Source of the DNA: Rhodothermia bacterium
Lineage (GTDB): Bacteria; Bacteroidota; Rhodothermia; Balneolales; Balneolaceae
Direction: 5' to 3'
NCBI GenBank assembly: GCA_030427885.1
Contig: JAUICM010000001.1
Coordinates: forward strand, 124,001 to 188,000
Length of the DNA: 64,000 nucleotides
This document shows, one piece after another, positions 281 through 10,230 of the stretch. The position numbers and the translations under genes were made by a program. A model generated the notes under the pieces. That model did no database searches and had not been told where the DNA came from. It saw only the letters and a list, made by a program, of their open reading frames with translations. Within the stretch, counting starts at the first letter, position 1. Each line of letters starts with the position of its first letter.

Positions 281-3144
281 CAGGGCTTAATTAACGCAGA
301 AAAGGCGGCATCAGCAACAGCGGCCCGAACACGACTGATTGTTTTACCATAAGAGCGGAAAGGATAGGTTCTGTTAGTGAGCAGGAACACCGCCATATTC
401 TTTTCACGGTCGATCCACATACTTGTACCGGTGAAGCCTAGATGTCCGAATGTATCATTACTGGCCAGCTGACCAGCAGTTGTAAATCCACTCGGGCTTT
501 TACGGTCGAAGCCATAACCGCGTCCGCTTATATCGGATTGTTTGGTAGTAAACTGATCAATGATCTCCGGAGTGAGGTATTGCTTTCCGGCATATGTACC
601 TCCATTCAATAACATATTGGCATATTTGGCCAGATCATCAACCGTTGCAAAGAGACCGGCGTGTCCGGCAATGCCATCCATATAAAAAGCACGTTCATCG
701 TTTACATCGGCCTGAATAAGTTGTTTTCGGTAAACAGTATCAATTTCAGTAGGAGGGATACGATCGACATACCATCTGCTCACCTTCTTTGGATTGAAGT
801 AAGCTCCGTACATTCCCATGGGATAGTAAAATTCACGTCGCATATATCCATCAATTCCACGGCCGGAAATTTGGGAAACGATCTCGGCCAGTAATATCAT
901 CCCCAGATCGCTGTATACATATTCAGTACCAGGCTCATAAATGAGTGGCTCGTTTTTGATAGCATCAATAATACTGTTCCGGTCATGTAGCTTATCAACA
1001 TATACTCTGAATGCAGGCAACCCTGACTGATGAAGCAGCAGATCCGCAATAGTGATATCACGTTTTGTATCGGTATCGAACTCAGGGATGAATTTCGATA
1101 CTTTGTCGTCCAGTGAAAGCTGATGTTCGTCGATCAGTTTCATTGTGGCTGTAGCAGTAGAAACTACTTTAGTGATGGAAGCAAGGTCAAATACATCAGA
1201 ATCTTTGAGTTCCCGGAGTTTGTCATAGTCATGGTACCCGAATGCTTCCCGGTATACTAAAACACCGTCTTTCAGAACTCCGGCAACCGCACCGGGAAAT
1301 ACAGAATCACTGATCGCTTTTCTGAGGATATCGTCAATTTCATATAATTTGGTTGAACTCAGATCCACTTCTTCAGGAGTTCCATATCGCACAGCTGTAT
1401 GTGGAAAGAACATTCCATCTCCGATCTCATACATTCCCGGTATCTGAATAGGCAGGTGACCATTCACACGGCTTGCACCGAACAGGGCAGGGGCCACGGC
1501 TTTCATCTGAAGTGAAGTGTTCGACCATGCCATAACATGTACATCGGTGTCGCTGAGTTCAGTAACCAGATACGGATTTCCAAACATAACCAGCACTGTT
1601 TTCTTACCGGTGTCCATCAATTTTCTGAGAAAAGCTGACTGTGTTCTGGTGAGTTGTATCGACTCCCTGAAACTCAGGCTTATGAATGAACCAATCACAA
1701 TAAGATCAGAGTCTTTGGCTTTGGCCAGAATCTTTGCCTCATCGTCATCATCAGATCGTTTATCATAAACAGAAAACGAGACATCCGGATGGTAATCCCG
1801 AAGTGCACGAACAAACGGGGAACCGGTAGAACCTGATTCATCATCCGCAATGGAGACCATCAGTACTTTTTTATGAACTGTAGGATCGATGGGCAGGATA
1901 TCGTTATCGTTTTTGAGAATAGTGATCGATTCCCTTGCGATCCGGTCCGCCACTGATTGATGATATTTAGTATTTACCCGTACATCCAGAAGATCAACAT
2001 CTACTGAATTATTTCCATCAAAGAGGCCGTATTGCTGTTTCCATTCCAGGATCTTACGATATGACTGATCGATCCTTTCTTCGGTTATCTCACCTTTTTT
2101 AACTGCATCCACTACTTCATTAATAGCAGTATAAATATCGGGACTGATGAGCATGATATCTGCGCCTGCATTAAGTGCTTTAACTACTGCCCGGCCAGGG
2201 GAAAATTTGGAAGTGATGCCTGACATTTCAAGACCGTCTGTTACTACCACTCCTTTAAAACCAAGTGAATCGTGAAGCAGGCTACCTATAATTGTGGAAT
2301 CGAGAGTTCCCGGAAGTTCCGGATGATCACTGATCTGTGGAAAGGAAATATGAGCACTCATGATACTTGGAATACCTGCCTGAATAGCCGAACGAAACGG
2401 AATCAGTTCAACTGAATCAAGTCGTTGATAGCTATGATCCAAAACAGGAAGGGCAATATGGGAATCGGTATCGGTATCGCCATGGCCCGGAAAGTGTTTG
2501 GCGGTTGAAACAATTCCTTCACTGTTTACCCCCTGGATAAATGCATTTCCATATTCAGAGACCATCTGTGGATCTCCGGAAAAAGAACGGACGTTGATCA
2601 CAGGATTATCAGGATTGTTATTCACATCCAGAACAGGAGCATAGATCTGATGAACGCCCAAAGCTTTGGCTTCAAGTGCTGTGATCTTACCCATCATAAA
2701 TGCATTTCTTTTATCTCCGGTTGCGGCAACTCCCATGGCAGGAGTGAAACGTGTAGAACCCGAAATACGCATTGCAGCCCCATACTCCATATCCTGAGTG
2801 ATCCAGAGTGGGACCGTTGAAAGCTTCTGTAATTTATTAGCTAATATTGCCTGACCGTAAATATCACCCCGCATAAAGATCAATCCACCAATATGCTGAT
2901 CAGTAATAAGATCTGATATCTCCTTGAATTTGTGGTCGTCTTTATTGAGAAATTGTCCTTCTATTGGTACGAAAAAAAGCTGTCCGATCTTTTCACGAAG
3001 GGTAGCATTGGCAACCAGAGAATCTACTATATCATAAGAATTGGACACAGGAGGTGCTGGTTCCGGGTCCTCTTTGCCAGGACCGCCGGCACCTGTTATT
3101 ATAATTGCCAGAAGGATGAAAGTGAGCAAACGGAAATTTTTCAT
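280..3144 (-). CDS. GH3 beta-N-acetylglucosaminidase fused to a beta-lactamase-family serine hydrolase (NagZ-AmiE type)
   Basis: A 954-residue exported protein. Residues 1-25 are a signal peptide without a lipobox cysteine. Residues about 40-390 are a GH3 domain with the NagZ signature KHFPGHGDTDTDSH (216-229), whose Asp-His pair is the acid/base in Bacillus NagZ, and the nucleophile Asp in VVTDGLEM (about 303). A GH3 C-terminal-like domain follows (about 400-590). The last 350 residues form a class C beta-lactamase/AmiE-like serine hydrolase with SITK as the SxxK motif and YSD in the Tyr position. In Bacillus subtilis NagZ and AmiE are separate neighbouring genes that remove GlcNAc and then cut MurNAc from the peptide. 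The fusion suggests both steps on exported muropeptides. The gene lies 84 bp downstream of the acylase and is coupled to the deaminase-like gene. Confidence 0.9.
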   Translation of the reverse strand: MKNFRLLTFILLAIIITGAGGPGKEDPEPAPPVSNSYDIVDSLVANATLREKIGQLFFVPIEGQFLNKDDHKFKEISDLITDQHIGGLIFMRGDIYGQAILANKLQKLSTVPLWITQDMEYGAAMRISGSTRFTPAMGVAATGDKRNAFMMGKITALEAKALGVHQIYAPVLDVNNNPDNPVINVRSFSGDPQMVSEYGNAFIQGVNSEGIVSTAKHFPGHGDTDTDSHIALPVLDHSYQRLDSVELIPFRSAIQAGIPSIMSAHISFPQISDHPELPGTLDSTIIGSLLHDSLGFKGVVVTDGLEMSGITSKFSPGRAVVKALNAGADIMLISPDIYTAINEVVDAVKKGEITEERIDQSYRKILEWKQQYGLFDGNNSVDVDLLDVRVNTKYHQSVADRIARESITILKNDNDILPIDPTVHKKVLMVSIADDESGSTGSPFVRALRDYHPDVSFSVYDKRSDDDDEAKILAKAKDSDLIVIGSFISLSFRESIQLTRTQSAFLRKLMDTGKKTVLVMFGNPYLVTELSDTDVHVMAWSNTSLQMKAVAPALFGASRVNGHLPIQIPGMYEIGDGMFFPHTAVRYGTPEEVDLSSTKLYEIDDILRKAISDSVFPGAVAGVLKDGVLVYREAFGYHDYDKLRELKDSDVFDLASITKVVSTATATMKLIDEHQLSLDDKVSKFIPEFDTDTKRDITIADLLLHQSGLPAFRVYVDKLHDRNSIIDAIKNEPLIYEPGTEYVYSDLGMILLAEIVSQISGRGIDGYMRREFYYPMGMYGAYFNPKKVSRWYVDRIPPTEIDTVYRKQLIQADVNDERAFYMDGIAGHAGLFATVDDLAKYANMLLNGGTYAGKQYLTPEIIDQFTTKQSDISGRGYGFDRKSPSGFTTAGQLASNDTFGHLGFTGTSMWIDREKNMAVFLLTNRTYPFRSYGKTISRVRAAVADAAFSALIKP

Positions 3145-3228
3145 CTAAATAATAGCCAGAGCGATGAATTTATATTGGTGGAATGTACATTTACAAAGAG
3201 CACCAACCAATCAATATTGCTGATAATT

Positions 3229-5691
3229 TCAATTATTAACAGGAATTAATTTCATACTGCTGAAATCAGCTTGTTTGAAAAAAGAGCTGTCCTGATAAAA
3301 AGTTCGGTATTGACCGTTCAGCCAGAGTTCAGTTTGATCTCCAAAATGAGCAGATAGTGGATTACCAGATTGTCCGGTTGGGATCACTGATTTGGTTTTA
3401 CTCAAATTAGAAAGATCAACAATACGTCTGACGGATGGTCCCAGAACCATTTGAAAAGGTTTGTCCCAGCTATACTGGCCATTGTTAACACTCATACCAT
3501 GACCTTTAACAGGGTAGGGGCCTTTGCTTAATACATTATTAACGATAAGCTTTAAAGCACCCGGAGCCTCAGGTTGTTCCGCAAATTCTCCAAATAATGG
3601 AGGTCTCAGGCTGATCGTGTGAAGCTGTTCCCATCTCCACTCAAAAGGTTCGCTTCCGAGGGAGTCACTGAGAAAATAGATCGCATCCTGCATGCTTTTA
3701 AGAACCATGTCCTTTTTTGATTCCCGAACCTCCGTATTTATGTCATCAAAGAATGAACTGCTGTCGCTGAGTAAATTCGTAAGTGCACGGACAGGCATAA
3801 GTTCATGCACCTCAAAGTTTTCATAAGCGGCATCTCCAAATTCATCTTTGAATGTATTTCGGGATAGACTCATGAAAAAAGTATCAAATATTGAAGCGGC
3901 GGTAGAGCTTTCATTGTATTTGAAATCCCAGTTCTCGAGATAGGATACAGGCAATGAGAAATCAAATTCATTCTGGTTTTTGATGATATCCAGGATCTTG
4001 GGAGTTACACTGGCAGCGAACTCAGAGTAAGAATCATTCTGCAGGGCGATCATATCTTCCTGGGTTAGGATCTGTTTGGCTGTGAGTCCTTTAGTGATAT
4101 GTTCGATTCGGGATGGCGGCTCCCAGAATGTTGCCAGATAATAAGGGTAATTATCGGTGGTTAATTTGTTATTAGCGTTTGCTATCCAACCTTTTTCAGG
4201 ATTTATGATGTGAGGCATTTGCTCCTGAGGGATGAATCCCTGCCAGTCATCTTTGGGTTCCCAGCCTCGTCTCATGGTTATCTTATCGCCACTTCGGATC
4301 GGGAGTTTAGCGGCAGAGAACATCGCAATATTGCCTTCCTTGTCGGCATACATCATGTTCTGGCCCGGTACATCGAAGTAATCGACAGCGTCTTTGAAAT
4401 CCTGAAAATTTTCACCCCAGTTGATCTGGTAAATAGCTTTTAATTCATTTGAGATCTCATAACCGGTCCACTGCATTGAAATCCCGTAATCACCCATTCC
4501 ATTCTCTAGCGGGAAAATGTCTGAAACCAGAGGGCCATGTTTAGTCAGACGTATCTCGAAAGCTTCGTCATCGGCATCTTTAACTTTTATGATCTCCCTT
4601 ATCTTTTCATAAGGCTGGAAGGCAACTTCTCCCGCTCGCGCTGAATCTACGATATAACGCCCCCGATCTTCAGGGTCAGTTTTCTCCAGAAAGAAATCAG
4701 TGTCATCGGCCATGATATTTGTGAACGACCAGGCATATTCGTCATTCTGCCCGATGATCACAGCCGGAGCCCCTGCAATACTGGTTCCCGATACATTTTT
4801 ACCTTTCAGGTTCAGGTGCACTTCATACCATTTACCGGGCATATCCAGTCCGAGGTGGGGATCACCGGCCAGGATCGGATACCCTGAATTAGTTTTACTT
4901 CCATCTACCACCCAGGCATTACTGCCCACATGAGTACCTTCAGCACTGAGAAGTTTTCGTTTCTGGATCTCCATCTGGAGCATTGGAAGTAAGGATGCGG
5001 AGATATTACCAAGTGCAATAGACTCATCATCATTTAAGGTAGTGGGAGCAGTATCATCCCAGCCCAGTCTGAGTTCTTCAAATTGTTCAGGGGGAAGGGT
5101 GGTTTTGAGGTAATTGTAAGTTGATTCACTCCACCAGCTCATATTAAGATCCCAGCCCATCAGGCGAACGATAGCCATGGATCTGGTTGGGGTCCATTCA
5201 AAGGGTTTGATGCCTGTCAATGCAAATTCAACTGGTAAACGGTTGCTGTTTTCTTCCACGAAAGCGTTAACACCATCTGAGTATGCCTGAAGTATTCCGC
5301 GCTCATGATCGTCAAGAGCTTCAGCTTCAAGTTTTTGAGCCATTCGCCAGAAACCGAGGGTTCGCTGATATTTGTCGTAAGGGACGAGCTCTTCGCCAAA
5401 GAACTCAGCAAAACGACCTTCCGCCGCGATCTGAGTCAGCGTCATCTGCCAGAGGCGATCCTGTGCATGAACATAGCCGAAGGCATAGTACAGATCTTTC
5501 TCAGTACTGGCATAAATATGGGGAACTCCAAATTCGTCCCAGTGAATATCAACTTCCTGCTCCAGACCGGGAGAATCGATTTCAGCTTCATAATCGGGCA
5601 GGGGTTTATAAAAGGTCCAGTAGAAAGCGAGTCCGGCAAAGCCAATGATCAGGATTAAAAAGAAAAGTAAAAGTTTGAGGAAGGTGTTCAT
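3229..5691 (-). CDS. Penicillin acylase family N-terminal-nucleophile hydrolase
   Basis: An 820-residue protein with one N-terminal membrane segment or signal (residues 5-25). The penicillin amidase fold shows the conserved start of the alpha subunit (VDIHWDEFGVPHIYA, residues 47-61) and FGYVHAQDRLWQM (71-83). The processing site is GSNAW (256-260), where Ser257 would become the N-terminal nucleophile after autocleavage. Length and layout match periplasmic or membrane-anchored acylases that cleave amides such as penicillins or N-acyl-homoserine lactones; the substrate cannot be told from sequence. It is first in a minus-strand run with the GH3 fusion and the deaminase-like gene, which hints at cell-wall or amide scavenging. 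Confidence 0.92.
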   Translation of the reverse strand: MNTFLKLLLFFLILIIGFAGLAFYWTFYKPLPDYEAEIDSPGLEQEVDIHWDEFGVPHIYASTEKDLYYAFGYVHAQDRLWQMTLTQIAAEGRFAEFFGEELVPYDKYQRTLGFWRMAQKLEAEALDDHERGILQAYSDGVNAFVEENSNRLPVEFALTGIKPFEWTPTRSMAIVRLMGWDLNMSWWSESTYNYLKTTLPPEQFEELRLGWDDTAPTTLNDDESIALGNISASLLPMLQMEIQKRKLLSAEGTHVGSNAWVVDGSKTNSGYPILAGDPHLGLDMPGKWYEVHLNLKGKNVSGTSIAGAPAVIIGQNDEYAWSFTNIMADDTDFFLEKTDPEDRGRYIVDSARAGEVAFQPYEKIREIIKVKDADDEAFEIRLTKHGPLVSDIFPLENGMGDYGISMQWTGYEISNELKAIYQINWGENFQDFKDAVDYFDVPGQNMMYADKEGNIAMFSAAKLPIRSGDKITMRRGWEPKDDWQGFIPQEQMPHIINPEKGWIANANNKLTTDNYPYYLATFWEPPSRIEHITKGLTAKQILTQEDMIALQNDSYSEFAASVTPKILDIIKNQNEFDFSLPVSYLENWDFKYNESSTAASIFDTFFMSLSRNTFKDEFGDAAYENFEVHELMPVRALTNLLSDSSSFFDDINTEVRESKKDMVLKSMQDAIYFLSDSLGSEPFEWRWEQLHTISLRPPLFGEFAEQPEAPGALKLIVNNVLSKGPYPVKGHGMSVNNGQYSWDKPFQMVLGPSVRRIVDLSNLSKTKSVIPTGQSGNPLSAHFGDQTELWLNGQYRTFYQDSSFFKQADFSSMKLIPVNN

Positions 5692-6825: not shown

Positions 6826-7035
6826 AATCTTTTTACACTAAGTTTACACAGGTGCCTTGCATTTTCGCCTTTTTTGGGGTTCTTTTGAGTCGTTATGGTA
6901 TCTGAGCTACTCACTCATCTTCCATTCTTTTAGAGAGGTATATAAAAACAGAATGATAGGGAAATTCCATTTTGGGAGGGGGAAAGATGCTGTTTCAATT
7001 TTAGACTATTCTTGAAAAAACAAATAAAGGATTCT

Positions 7036-9867
7036 ATGAAGAAACTGTTACTGCTTTTGGGGCTTTTCACACTTTTCACAAATTACGCCTACGCTCAAAC
7101 TCCCGCTCCCGGAGATATCATCATTACAGAATTTATGGCCAATCCGGCGGCTTCGCCGGAAAGTGGAGGTGAATACATTGAACTCTATAATAAACGTTCA
7201 GTTTCATTTGATTTGGAAGGGTTTGTAATTAAAGATGATGATTCTGATTTACACACCATTACCGGATCTTTAGTAATTCCAGCAGAAGGTTTTATAGTTT
7301 TAGCGGCTGTCTCAGATCCACTTGGAAATTCAAGTAACGTTGCTGATTACACAAGTCTTGATATGACACTGGCAAACTCAGTAGATGAAATAGTGTTAAC
7401 AACTTCATCCGGAACTGAAATAGCTCGTGTTACCTATGATCTTTCAACTTCAAATGGTACTTCCAAAGAACTAGATGCCATCAGTAATGTCGAATCAGAT
7501 GGATCTGTAGATGATTCTCACTACAGTAATTCAGTTACTTCAATTTCAGGAGGTATAGAATCAAATGGCTCTCCAGGCGCTGCGGGAAGTACAGATCTTA
7601 CCGAAACAGCAACCGTGCGATTTAGCAGCAGTGGATCAACCGTTGACGAAACGGCTGGGGAGGTTTCAATAACTGTAATACTGGAAGACCCGGATGGTAA
7701 TGCCGTGGATGTGGATGTGAGTTACAATGAAGGAGGAAGTTCTACAGAACCCAGTGACTTTACCAGTGTTTCTACTGTTACTGTTTCATTCGGAGCAGGT
7801 GCCTCCGATGGTGATACTCAAACCGCTACATTCGAAGTACACAGCGACTCAGATTATGAAGGAACAGAGTATGGTTTTTTTGAATTGAGTAATGTGTCAA
7901 CATCCGGTAATGCAGTTATAGATGGAGATACAACCTATACGCTTACTATTAGTGATGATGATACTCCAAGCGTGGTTATCAATGAAGTTTACGGAAATCC
8001 CGATGATGATGCAGATGGAAATGGAGTAGTTAGTACGTCCGCAGATGAATTTGTGGAAATTTATAACAACGAAGGAGTTAATATCGATATAGGTGGTTGG
8101 TATATTAATGATGCGTTAAGTACCAAAATAACATTTGCGACCGGAACAATTATAAAAGCTAACTCCGCTATTGTGGTTTTTGGAGATAATGGATCTTCAC
8201 CTGTCGGCACATTTGGGGGGAGTACTGTATTACCTAGTTCAGCAGCAAATTTAGGCCTGAATAATGGAGCTGAAACTGTAACATTATTTGATTCTGATGA
8301 TGCACAAATAGATCAAGTGTCATGGTCAAGTAGCCCAAGTGGTGAGTCATTAACTCGGGATCCTGATGGAACCGGAGCATTTGGTACTGGTCACTCATCA
8401 GCTTCAGGTTCAACTGGAGATATTTCCCCCGGCACCAAAGTAGATGGCTCATGGTTCACAAACTCTATTGTAATTGAAGGAACTGCAGGTTGGAGGCTGC
8501 TTTCTATTCCCATGTCCGGAGCGGACGTTACTGAGATATCAGATGATACTCCGGTACAGGGAGTGAGTGGAGGTACGGCACCCGATTCGGCTGCTAATTT
8601 ATATACCTATGATGAGGATGGCTCCTGGGAAGTTCCGGCTAGCACAAGCGCTGCGATAGGTGGTGGAACCGGATTTGCTCTCTACTTCTATAACAATGAT
8701 GATGCAAACAGTTTGCATTTGCCTGTAACGCTGGATGCGTCTGGTTCAGAGCCTTCATCAGACGTAACAGTAAATCTGAGCTCTACCGATCTGGATGGAT
8801 CTTTTTACACCTTAGTTGGAAATCCATTCTCCTATAATTTTGATCTGAGTGCTGCTACTTCAAATAATGATGGAATTCAGGCTAATGTGCATTTCTGGGA
8901 TAATGAAGCCGGTTCTTACGAGGCGGTGGATCGGACTACCCCATCCATAGTAAGTGCGTGGCAGGGTTTCTTTGTGGAAGTAACTAACTCGGGAACTCCT
9001 TCTACAACCATCACTTTCCCTGAAAGTGGAAAGACCTTTTCTGCCGTAACTGATTTCCATGTTTCAAAGACGGCTCGCAAACGTGCTGATATCTCATTTA
9101 CAATGGCATCAAAGAATTCTTTTGACAAAGCTATTCGTCTTAGTTTCAGAGAAGAAGCCTCTGCAGGGATGGACATTTACGATGCATCGAAGTTCGTGCC
9201 TTTGATTGAGAAATATGCAACCATGGCTTTTGAATCCAATGACCGACTAAAATCTGTTGAATCGCTGCCTTATGGTTTGAAGGATGTTACCAATGTTCAA
9301 TTGGTACCACAACTTGTTGGAGTGGAAGGTGAGTTTACTCTTACCTGGGAAGGTTTGAAAAGTATACCTGCTGACTGGAAGCTGATGCTGAATGACGCTT
9401 TGACCGGAAAAAGTGTAGATATGAGATCCGTTTCAGAGTATACATTCAGAGCACTTGCTCCAGAGGATGCAGAGGTGAATCCACTTACGATTCTGAATGG
9501 TCCGGTCGCGACTCCTCAAAAAGCTAAAGATGCAGAGGAGGGAAGGTTTACCATTAGTATAGATCCTTCCATTCTTTCTTCAAATGAAAATGATGACAAT
9601 CCGGAAGGATTCACCCTTTCCCAAAACTACCCGAATCCATTCAACCCAAGTACGAATATCCGTTACTCCGTGGCTGAGCCTGGGAATGTGAATATCACCG
9701 TGTATAATCTCATGGGACAGAAAGTAGCTGAGCTGGTGAATGAAACTAAGTCGGCCGGTGCTTACAACGTGACCTGGAATGCTTCGCAAATGGCCAGTGG
9801 TATGTATTACTACCGCCTCACTTCGGCAGGACAAACCATTACCCGAAAAATGACCCTTATCAAGTAG
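7036..9867 (+). CDS. Secreted lamin-tail/Calx-beta protein with T9SS sorting domain
   Basis: About 943 residues from the ATG at 7036, chosen because AAAGGA lies 6 bases upstream; the upstream in-frame TTG at 7012 has no such site and would bury the signal peptide. Order of parts: Sec signal ending AYAQ; lamin-tail domain (PGDIIITEFMANPAA... to about residue 150); Calx-beta-like repeat (about 190-300, ending in TLTISDDDTPS); a second lamin-tail domain (VVINEVYGNPDDDADGNG...); a long beta-rich region; and a C-terminal T9SS type A domain starting at [14 protein letters not shown] and ending KMTLIK. It is predicted to be exported across the outer membrane and attached or released by T9SS. Lamin-tail domains are often found with nucleases or adhesins, but no catalytic domain is visible here. 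Confidence 0.85.
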   Translation: MKKLLLLLGLFTLFTNYAYAQTPAPGDIIITEFMANPAASPESGGEYIELYNKRSVSFDLEGFVIKDDDSDLHTITGSLVIPAEGFIVLAAVSDPLGNSSNVADYTSLDMTLANSVDEIVLTTSSGTEIARVTYDLSTSNGTSKELDAISNVESDGSVDDSHYSNSVTSISGGIESNGSPGAAGSTDLTETATVRFSSSGSTVDETAGEVSITVILEDPDGNAVDVDVSYNEGGSSTEPSDFTSVSTVTVSFGAGASDGDTQTATFEVHSDSDYEGTEYGFFELSNVSTSGNAVIDGDTTYTLTISDDDTPSVVINEVYGNPDDDADGNGVVSTSADEFVEIYNNEGVNIDIGGWYINDALSTKITFATGTIIKANSAIVVFGDNGSSPVGTFGGSTVLPSSAANLGLNNGAETVTLFDSDDAQIDQVSWSSSPSGESLTRDPDGTGAFGTGHSSASGSTGDISPGTKVDGSWFTNSIVIEGTAGWRLLSIPMSGADVTEISDDTPVQGVSGGTAPDSAANLYTYDEDGSWEVPASTSAAIGGGTGFALYFYNNDDANSLHLPVTLDASGSEPSSDVTVNLSSTDLDGSFYTLVGNPFSYNFDLSAATSNNDGIQANVHFWDNEAGSYEAVDRTTPSIVSAWQGFFVEVTNSGTPSTTITFPESGKTFSAVTDFHVSKTARKRADISFTMASKNSFDKAIRLSFREEASAGMDIYDASKFVPLIEKYATMAFESNDRLKSVESLPYGLKDVTNVQLVPQLVGVEGEFTLTWEGLKSIPADWKLMLNDALTGKSVDMRSVSEYTFRALAPEDAEVNPLTILNGPVATPQKAKDAEEGRFTISIDPSILSSNENDDNPEGFTLSQNYPNPFNPSTNIRYSVAEPGNVNITVYNLMGQKVAELVNETKSAGAYNVTWNASQMASGMYYYRLTSAGQTITRKMTLIK

Positions 9868-9942
9868 TGCTTAGTTTTAAGTGATGAGTTTTGAATTGAT
9901 TGACCACTCAAAACTCAACACTGAGCACTCAAAACTAAAGAA
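9866..9942. repeat. Heptad-word hairpin element C, starting at the stop codon
   Basis: From the stop codon at 9865-9867 the sequence continues in strict 7-bp units. AGTNNTN-type units run over 9866-9893 and inverted TCANNAC-type units over 9908-9935, with a short loop region at 9894-9907. The arms are complementary if one 7-base unit is bulged out. The run ends at the ribosome-binding region of the next small gene. Confidence 0.72.
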
Positions 9943-9945
9943 ATT

Positions 9946-10131
9946 ATGAAATCAACGAATCTGCTCTTTTTGACACTTTTATTTTTAGTAATTGCATCCG
10001 GAGTCTTAATGGCCCAACCAGGTCTGCCGAACTCCCCAAGTCAGGCTCCTATCGATGGTGGCCTCGGGCTGCTTGCAGCAGCGGGCGGTATGTATGCATG
10101 GAAAAAGCTTCGTAATAAAACGGAAGCCTGA
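9946..10131 (+). CDS. 61-residue PID-CTERM-like sorting-signal protein
   Basis: The product is almost only targeting signals. Residues 1-23 are a Sec signal ending VLMAQ. A Pro/Ser-rich linker of about 12 residues follows, then PIDGG (35-39), a short hydrophobic stretch (LGLLAAAGGMYAW) and a basic end (KKLRNKTEA). PIDGG plus membrane segment plus basic tail is the layout I know as the PID-CTERM sorting signal of Bacteroidota, thought to be handled by an exosortase-like enzyme; no such enzyme lies in this window. Mature product after two cuts would be a tiny peptide. It follows a T9SS-secreted protein but is separated from it by element C. The gene call is likely; its role is unknown. Confidence 0.7.
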   Translation: MKSTNLLFLTLLFLVIASGVLMAQPGLPNSPSQAPIDGGLGLLAAAGGMYAWKKLRNKTEA

Positions 10132-10169
10132 TCCGGCTCATTATCCACCAAAACTTTATGTACAGGTCG

Positions 10170-10230
10170 GCTTGCAGCAGCGGGCGGTATGTATGCATGG
10201 AAAAAGCTCCGAAGCAAAAGTGAAAAGTAA
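10170..10230 (+). pseudogene. Duplicated C-terminal tail of the PID-CTERM-like gene
   Basis: Positions 10170-10208 repeat 10071-10109 exactly (39 bases, offset 99). Because 99 is a multiple of three, the copy stays in the same frame as the upstream gene: it would encode LAAAGGMYAWKKL and a basic tail ending at the TAA at 10228-10230. It has lost the PIDGG part, signal peptide and start. The 33 codons between the upstream TGA and this copy contain no other stop. It is most simply a remnant of a tandem duplication. Confidence 0.65.

Follow-up and report, generated by a model that had tools for sequence, protein, structure and literature searches.

The mini-gene at positions 9946–10131 of the window (the whole stretch of DNA analysed, 64,000 nucleotides) encodes a 61-residue PID-CTERM protein and forms a cassette with a type IX secretion system (T9SS) type A cargo gene that bears a specific pre-tail module. 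This coupling of the mini-gene to T9SS cargo genes is the main point of our analysis and was missed by an earlier preliminary description of the locus. Our favored explanation, to which we assign a probability of about 0.6, is that the mini-gene product is a substrate dedicated to the XrtX exosortase and that a glycan tagged with its peptide serves the neighboring T9SS cargo. The relevant features, all on the forward strand, are the following.

7012–9867, forward: partner gene encoding a large T9SS type A cargo protein, 951 aa in frame, likely start ATG at ~7036 (TIGR04183, Pfam)
8389–9606, forward: pre-tail module common to mini-gene partners, predicted all-beta (HMM, alignment, AlphaFold model)
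9628–9852, forward: T9SS type A sorting tail of the partner (55.4 bits; G000:C2:133628-133852)
9865–9937, forward: imperfect inverted repeat with 30-nt arms, located between the cargo stop and the mini-gene (fold z −3.6)
9946–10131, forward: PID-CTERM mini-gene, 61 aa (ORF from ATG to TGA, NF046080 match, copies elsewhere in the genome)
9946–10014, forward: signal peptide, residues 1–23 of the mini-protein (by eye and homologue pattern; cut expected at LMA / Q)
10015–10047, forward: expected mature segment QPGLPNSPSQA (sequence, homologue pattern)
10048–10128, forward: PID motif, hydrophobic helix, and basic tail KKLRNKTEA (NF046080, residues 34–58)
10165–10230, forward: remnant of a second mini-gene tail (RLAAAGGMYAWKKLRSKSEK, stop), lacking an in-frame start codon and a PID motif (repeat comparison, profile score)

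The mini-protein reads MKSTNLLFLTLLFLVIASGVLMA-QPGLPNSPSQA-PID-GGLGLLAAAGGMYAW-KKLRNKTEA (hyphens are inserted division marks) and matches the NCBIfam model PID_CTERM (NF046080) with 43 bits against a cut-off of 26, residues 34–58 covering the full profile (1–25). Its C-terminus has the PID-CTERM layout, in which a hydrophobic helix follows the motif and basic residues close the chain; the N-terminal signal peptide is evident by eye only, and a Pfam search of the protein gave nothing over cut-off. The preliminary description had claimed a protein made only of sorting signals that would leave a short peptide after both cuts, and this was borne out: in the 61 residues, the signal peptide is separated from the PID motif, helix, and basic tail by a Pro-rich stretch of about 11 residues, the count being 11 from the expected cut to PID. 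Both cleavage sites are putative and guessed from the sequence. Among the homologues, Pro accounts for 32% of the residues of the mature segments, and S/D-Q-A/T recurs before PID. An N-terminal Gln follows the predicted cut in 83 of 90 modelled homologues (of 99), a figure biased by the signal-peptide rule, under which only Q, D, or C could follow the cut.

The same properties bear on whether a peptide is released at all. The mini-protein might act uncut or as a helix stub, yielding no peptide product of its own; it would then be a small protein of the inner membrane with a role in regulating XrtX or in aiding the export of its neighbor. This would suit the very short part between the two signals (with PID counted in, its median length is 15 residues), which varies in sequence while PID, helix, and basic tail are constant. 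However, the mature segment is patterned and co-varies with the module of the partner protein, and we regard an uncut or stub function as unlikely.

The source genome (13 contigs, 4.15 Mb) contains four intact copies of the mini-gene, namely the one in the window, a copy with 87% identity on contig C8, and two with 60% identity on C10. A further candidate at locus L006 (44% identity) has an internal stop and was excluded. Over codons 1–56, the window gene and its C8 paralogue are separated by 15 synonymous and 6 non-synonymous codon changes, a pattern such as would arise under purifying selection; the final five codons, which form the chimeric part, add 3 non-synonymous changes. Named relatives come no closer than 76% identity over part of the mini-protein. 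Within the phylum, PID_CTERM matches are present in 57 of 296 genomes and exceed the cut-off in 48. The preliminary description had proposed a search for PIDGG-tail mini-genes in relatives, absence of which would count against its reading, and the mini-gene proved to be conserved in 28 of the 36 genomes of its own family (Balneolaceae). Separately, a recurring neighborhood (pdxA and fabH by eye) away from T9SS genes surrounds the weak PID-like matches at L229, L231, L233, and L234 (family f26), and polysaccharide export-like genes also occur nearby at L233 and L238.

Nearly all detected PID_CTERM targets are mini-proteins. By hand count over the 296 genomes, the frame is no longer than 183 aa for 138 of the 139 matches above the cut-off, and the sole frame longer than 200 aa (L269:3118-6102, genome G166) encodes a multi-helix membrane protein of 995 aa with a VPIDGE variant tail. 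The suggestion in the preliminary description that the gene is a donor cassette of sorting tails could draw on the copying of tail pieces between loci, but with this single long frame recipients are nearly absent, which largely refutes it and leaves it scarcely credible.

A matching exosortase, also proposed as a search target in the preliminary description, is present. The only exosortase match with PF09721 in the source genome is an XrtX (NF046081, 185 bits, cut-off 170); it stays below the cut-offs of the XrtF model (TIGR04128, 82 bits, cut-off 90) and of the XrtA model (TIGR03109, 17.1 bits, cut-off 208). It contains the motifs DGCTG, NILRV, and THDY, which we take to resemble the exosortase Cys/Arg/His set. 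With the exosortase present and the mini-gene conserved, the peptide-precursor reading of the preliminary description fits well and is well supported, and the mini-protein is very probably a substrate of XrtX.

The PID-CTERM protein and XrtX co-occur tightly across genomes. XrtX-like genes, defined by an E-value ≤1e-5 and thereby including relatives of XrtF type, occur in 90 of the 296 genomes. These 90 include all 48 genomes with a PID match over cut-off vs. 42 of the 248 others (p = 1.4e-30, Fisher, a value that overstates independence given the kinship of the genomes). The association holds within the family (28 of 28 over-cut-off PID genomes vs. 1 of 8 others) and outside the order (14 of 14 vs. 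41 of 240). When any PID match is counted, 55 of 57 genomes are XrtX-like-positive, the exceptions G035 and G152 having sub-cut-off matches only, and G147 is the only family genome with XrtX and no detected PID gene. An XrtX-like gene does not imply a PID gene, since 35 genomes with an XrtX-like gene lack any PID match, many of them having XrtF-like scores.

The gene directly upstream of the mini-gene encodes a protein that has two lamin-tail (LTD) matches and a Calx-beta domain in its front part, besides the pre-tail module and a T9SS-A tail (Por_Secre_tail); this C-terminal tail scores 49.3 bits against TIGR04183 (cut-off 23). The T9SS sortase PorU is also encoded in the source genome (NF033707, 1077 bits, cut-off 420). 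All four mini-genes of this genome are located directly downstream of a T9SS type A cargo gene on the same strand, two of the other partners lying in open frames of 3213 and 5187 aa. With 77 T9SS-A tails in 4.15 Mb, simple arithmetic gives a random site a chance of ~0.14% of having such a tail end ≤150 nt upstream on the same strand. We rely on this genome-wide count because the adjacency control, in which a T9SS gene was upstream in 46 of 293 other same-strand pairs, is biased upward (loci picked around mini-genes, frames <90 aa omitted).

Over all genomes, the source genome included, 78 of 98 mini-gene frames directly follow a T9SS-A gene. Within the family this holds for 63 of 67 frames, elsewhere in the order for 6 of 11, and in genomes outside the order for 9 of 20. 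These frames are a subset of the PID matches in the 296 genomes, chosen mostly by E-value order, and remain from 100 (80 linked) after removal of the window remnant and a degenerate frame in L107. For the 11 of 20 frames outside the order the neighbor was undetected, and some of them (G273, G045, and G072) sit beside xrtX by their coordinates. A set of 22 named loci, which overlaps the main set in species, has a T9SS-A neighbor in 19 cases, each with the module. T9SS-A tails occur in 36 of 36 family genomes, so the T9SS itself is independent of XrtX.

The partners differ in their front part and share ~380 aa before the T9SS tail, including GNPF and PFQGFFV-like motifs. Neither Pfam nor NCBIfam gave a match over this stretch (8389–9606). 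An HMM built from the four source partners detected the module in 72 of 73 other partners and in 2 of 28 non-partner source T9SS-A ORFs of L167–L196; among the 31 source T9SS-A ORFs of these loci it retrieved three partners together with L174 and L188, neither of which is followed by a mini-gene. The module is found in 95 of the 296 genomes and is not confined to the XrtX/PID system, as all eight PID-negative family genomes encode 1–3 copies each (counted among the best six scored candidates per genome). An XrtX-like gene is present in 74 of the 95 genomes with the module vs. 16 of the 201 without it. The AlphaFold model of the window module is all-beta (pLDDT 79.7, pTM 0.55); searches for a known fold gave no Foldseek match at E ≤0.001 and no VIA-align Z ≥5 (best 4.2), which does not prove a new fold. 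Two variations of gene and module arrangement were seen: contig C13 of the source genome (L236:6078-15442) encodes two adjacent large T9SS proteins with the module and no mini-gene match, and one partner (L248:1-3924) has two tandem module copies before its tail.

Peptide and module distances are correlated over 61 family cassettes (r = 0.40). Re-pairing the mini-genes within genomes lowers the correlation to 0.157 ± 0.042, and none of 2000 re-pairings reached 0.40. Several giant-partner modules accompany a longer peptide of the GLPMFPDDPAAA or GIPGPPGFP type. Cassette duplication alone could be the source of the observed correlation. The window and C8 cassettes have in common a 521-nt block of T9SS tail, spacer, and mini-gene that is 83% identical, and nothing else; their mini-proteins are 87% identical and their modules 27% identical. 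Because such near-identical mini-proteins stand beside divergent modules, with only the tail-spacer-mini-gene block in common, fine peptide-module matching is not needed. The copying of this block between cassettes with unrelated modules, together with the existence of solitary mini-genes, would also agree with hitch-hiking, in which duplication and gene conversion keep the mini-gene next to T9SS genes and XrtX processes its product without any functional tie to the cargo. Yet the link holds across families and with both small and giant partners, and it involves one module type of T9SS cargo, so we consider hitch-hiking rather improbable and a functional partnership between mini-gene and T9SS cargo likely.

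Copying is also evident immediately behind the mini-gene. The preliminary description had reported an exact repeat of 39 nt of the tail region at an offset of 99 nt, in the same frame after a TGA with no other stop between, and had taken it as recent duplication. The coordinates and the repeat are correct as described; the entire 60-nt pair is 87% identical, and the frame is open from the TGA at 10129–10131 to the TAA at 10228–10230. This open frame is no evidence in itself, since a stop-free run of 32 codons is expected in about 1 in 5 cases by simple codon arithmetic and a shared frame in 1 in 3. The 39-nt identity, by contrast, is far beyond chance. Scoring 19.7 bits against PID_CTERM, under the cut-off of 26, the second copy is not a family member in its own right. 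Differences between the tail copies are concentrated in the final 21 nt, the window mini-gene ending in KKLRNKTEA and the remnant in KKLRSKSEK, the same as the C8 paralogue. A 39-nt spacer lies between mini-gene and remnant, and its first 18 nt are absent from the other fetched loci. Intact tandem mini-gene pairs are found in relatives (L094 of G286 and L121 of G069). The remnant is probably the second member of a former tandem pair that lost its front while its core was kept identical by conversion. The 99-nt repeat looks like the remnant of a second tandem mini-gene rather than a fresh in-gene duplication, and the claim of recent duplication stands only for the 521-nt block common to the window and C8 cassettes.

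The neighborhood of xrtX may indicate the acceptor. In the source genome, xrtX adjoins a gene for SLBB export; farther out lie a sugar transferase gene and WbpB-like and WbpD-like genes. At four loci of relatives (L151, L152, L153, and L163) a WbpE-like aminotransferase gene abuts xrtX upstream, preceded by a WbpD-like gene; in L153 the amino-sugar genes span 904–4954 and xrtX follows at 4959–5483 after a 4-nt gap. In L154, an SLBB gene is placed between the WbpE-like gene and xrtX. A WbpB-like gene is found within the fetched stretch in three of the four former loci and in L154. Wbp-type neighbors are not universal, a WbpD-like gene being present at 6 of 15 order-level xrtX loci, the source locus included. 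For the L153 aminotransferase, WbpE is among the top four PDB matches (3nyu, 3e-71), and the best PDB matches for this locus also include a dehydrogenase (3q2i, 7e-56) and an acetyltransferase (3mqg, 9e-73), presumably WlbA and WlbB. A further gene in this neighborhood (L147:5449-5964) encodes a membrane protein of ~170 aa that overlaps the end of xrtX and has no NCBIfam match; similar genes occur at eight compared loci, in a position like that of the exosortase F system-associated gene. In Porphyromonas gingivalis, the Wbp pathway makes the linking sugar of T9SS cargo, and exosortase systems have been speculated to use amino-acid-modified sugars like this one (PMC7468200). The Wbp genes beside xrtX might connect the acceptor of the exosortase with the linking sugar of the T9SS, and XrtX may use a Wbp-type sugar.

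In the favored explanation, the mini-protein would be exported via its signal peptide, cleavage of which would leave an N-terminal Gln, and would be held in the inner membrane by its hydrophobic helix. XrtX would then cut near PID and attach the Pro-rich peptide (~11–14 residues) to an acceptor that the nearby polysaccharide or Wbp-type amino-sugar genes would make. At the surface, the resulting peptide-tagged glycan would serve the adjacent T9SS cargo, whose pre-tail module would most likely dock or be anchored to it. Cleavage, acceptor, and role for the cargo are inferred, and the particular version with a Wbp-type acceptor and a docking role is tentative and, in our view, somewhat doubtful. 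The peptide could instead be released by XrtX as an extracellular messenger, as it is short and conserved, starts with Gln, and is encoded by several paralogues; against this, no receptor gene was noticed beside the mini-gene, paralogues of one genome yield near-identical peptides, and the partner is a large surface protein, making a secreted signal very unlikely.

Both signal and enzyme were already known as named models, and the likeness to the XrtX/PID-CTERM system (NF046081/NF046080) is one of membership, mini-protein and exosortase both scoring over curated cut-offs. Within the searchable literature, the mini-protein-only target set and its placement behind module-bearing T9SS cargo genes are not described: searches on PID-CTERM, XrtX, exosortases and type IX secretion, and Balneolaceae and type IX secretion returned no report of either, subscription papers lying mostly outside the search. 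The PEP-CTERM/EpsH (XrtA) system is similar in its tripartite C-terminal signal and in an exosortase encoded near exopolysaccharide genes (the SLBB export and sugar transferase genes at the source xrtX), but the PID system described here has no PEP motif and almost no large detected targets. XrtJ/PExPT-CTERM (TIGR04200) also has a tiny exosortase target (57-position model), but the mini-protein reaches 13.4 bits vs. a cut-off of 40. With PorU and the Wbp/Vim linking sugar the system has in common the Wbp-type genes, found beside xrtX in several relatives; what sets it apart is the pairing of T9SS cargo genes with the very gene that encodes the exosortase substrate.

XrtF of Flavobacterium johnsoniae is a related exosortase that belongs to another subfamily by the TIGR04128 cut-off. 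An xrtF deletion behaved like porU, porV, and sprA deletions in biofilm and zorb assays, and the same study leaves the XrtF substrates to future work (PMC10936215). A flavobacterial-type genome (G218, L230:400-5093) has, behind the gene of a module-bearing protein, a mini-gene with PINGK that is a weak PID-like match and a candidate XrtF substrate. PFE-CTERM was considered as a flavobacterial counterpart and dismissed, with 0 of 35 genomes over cut-off. A broader proposal, speculative and on balance improbable, would have two sortases serve one surface structure, the peptide on its Wbp-type sugar carrier being a dedicated dock, anchor, or stub of the next-door T9SS cargo; type IX secretion would then include the exosortase as an accessory branch, and the XrtF substrates of flavobacteria would come from related mini-genes. 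XrtX is now matched to almost exclusively mini-protein substrates tied to one T9SS cargo class. This joins two surface-sorting systems usually handled apart and yields a short gene list and a specific peptide for future research.

Finally, the spacer between cargo gene and mini-gene folds strongly in many cassettes, with z under −2 in 32 of 44 spacers vs. 9 of 51 control gaps. In a fixed 90-nt window after T9SS stops, strong folds were found in 26 of 55 cases without a mini-gene vs. 37 of 74 linked cases. A cassette-specific RNA element was rejected in view of this similar folding, and we take the spacer fold to be a generic gene-end hairpin after T9SS genes. Strong hairpins follow many T9SS genes, and their sequences are unrelated between genomes.
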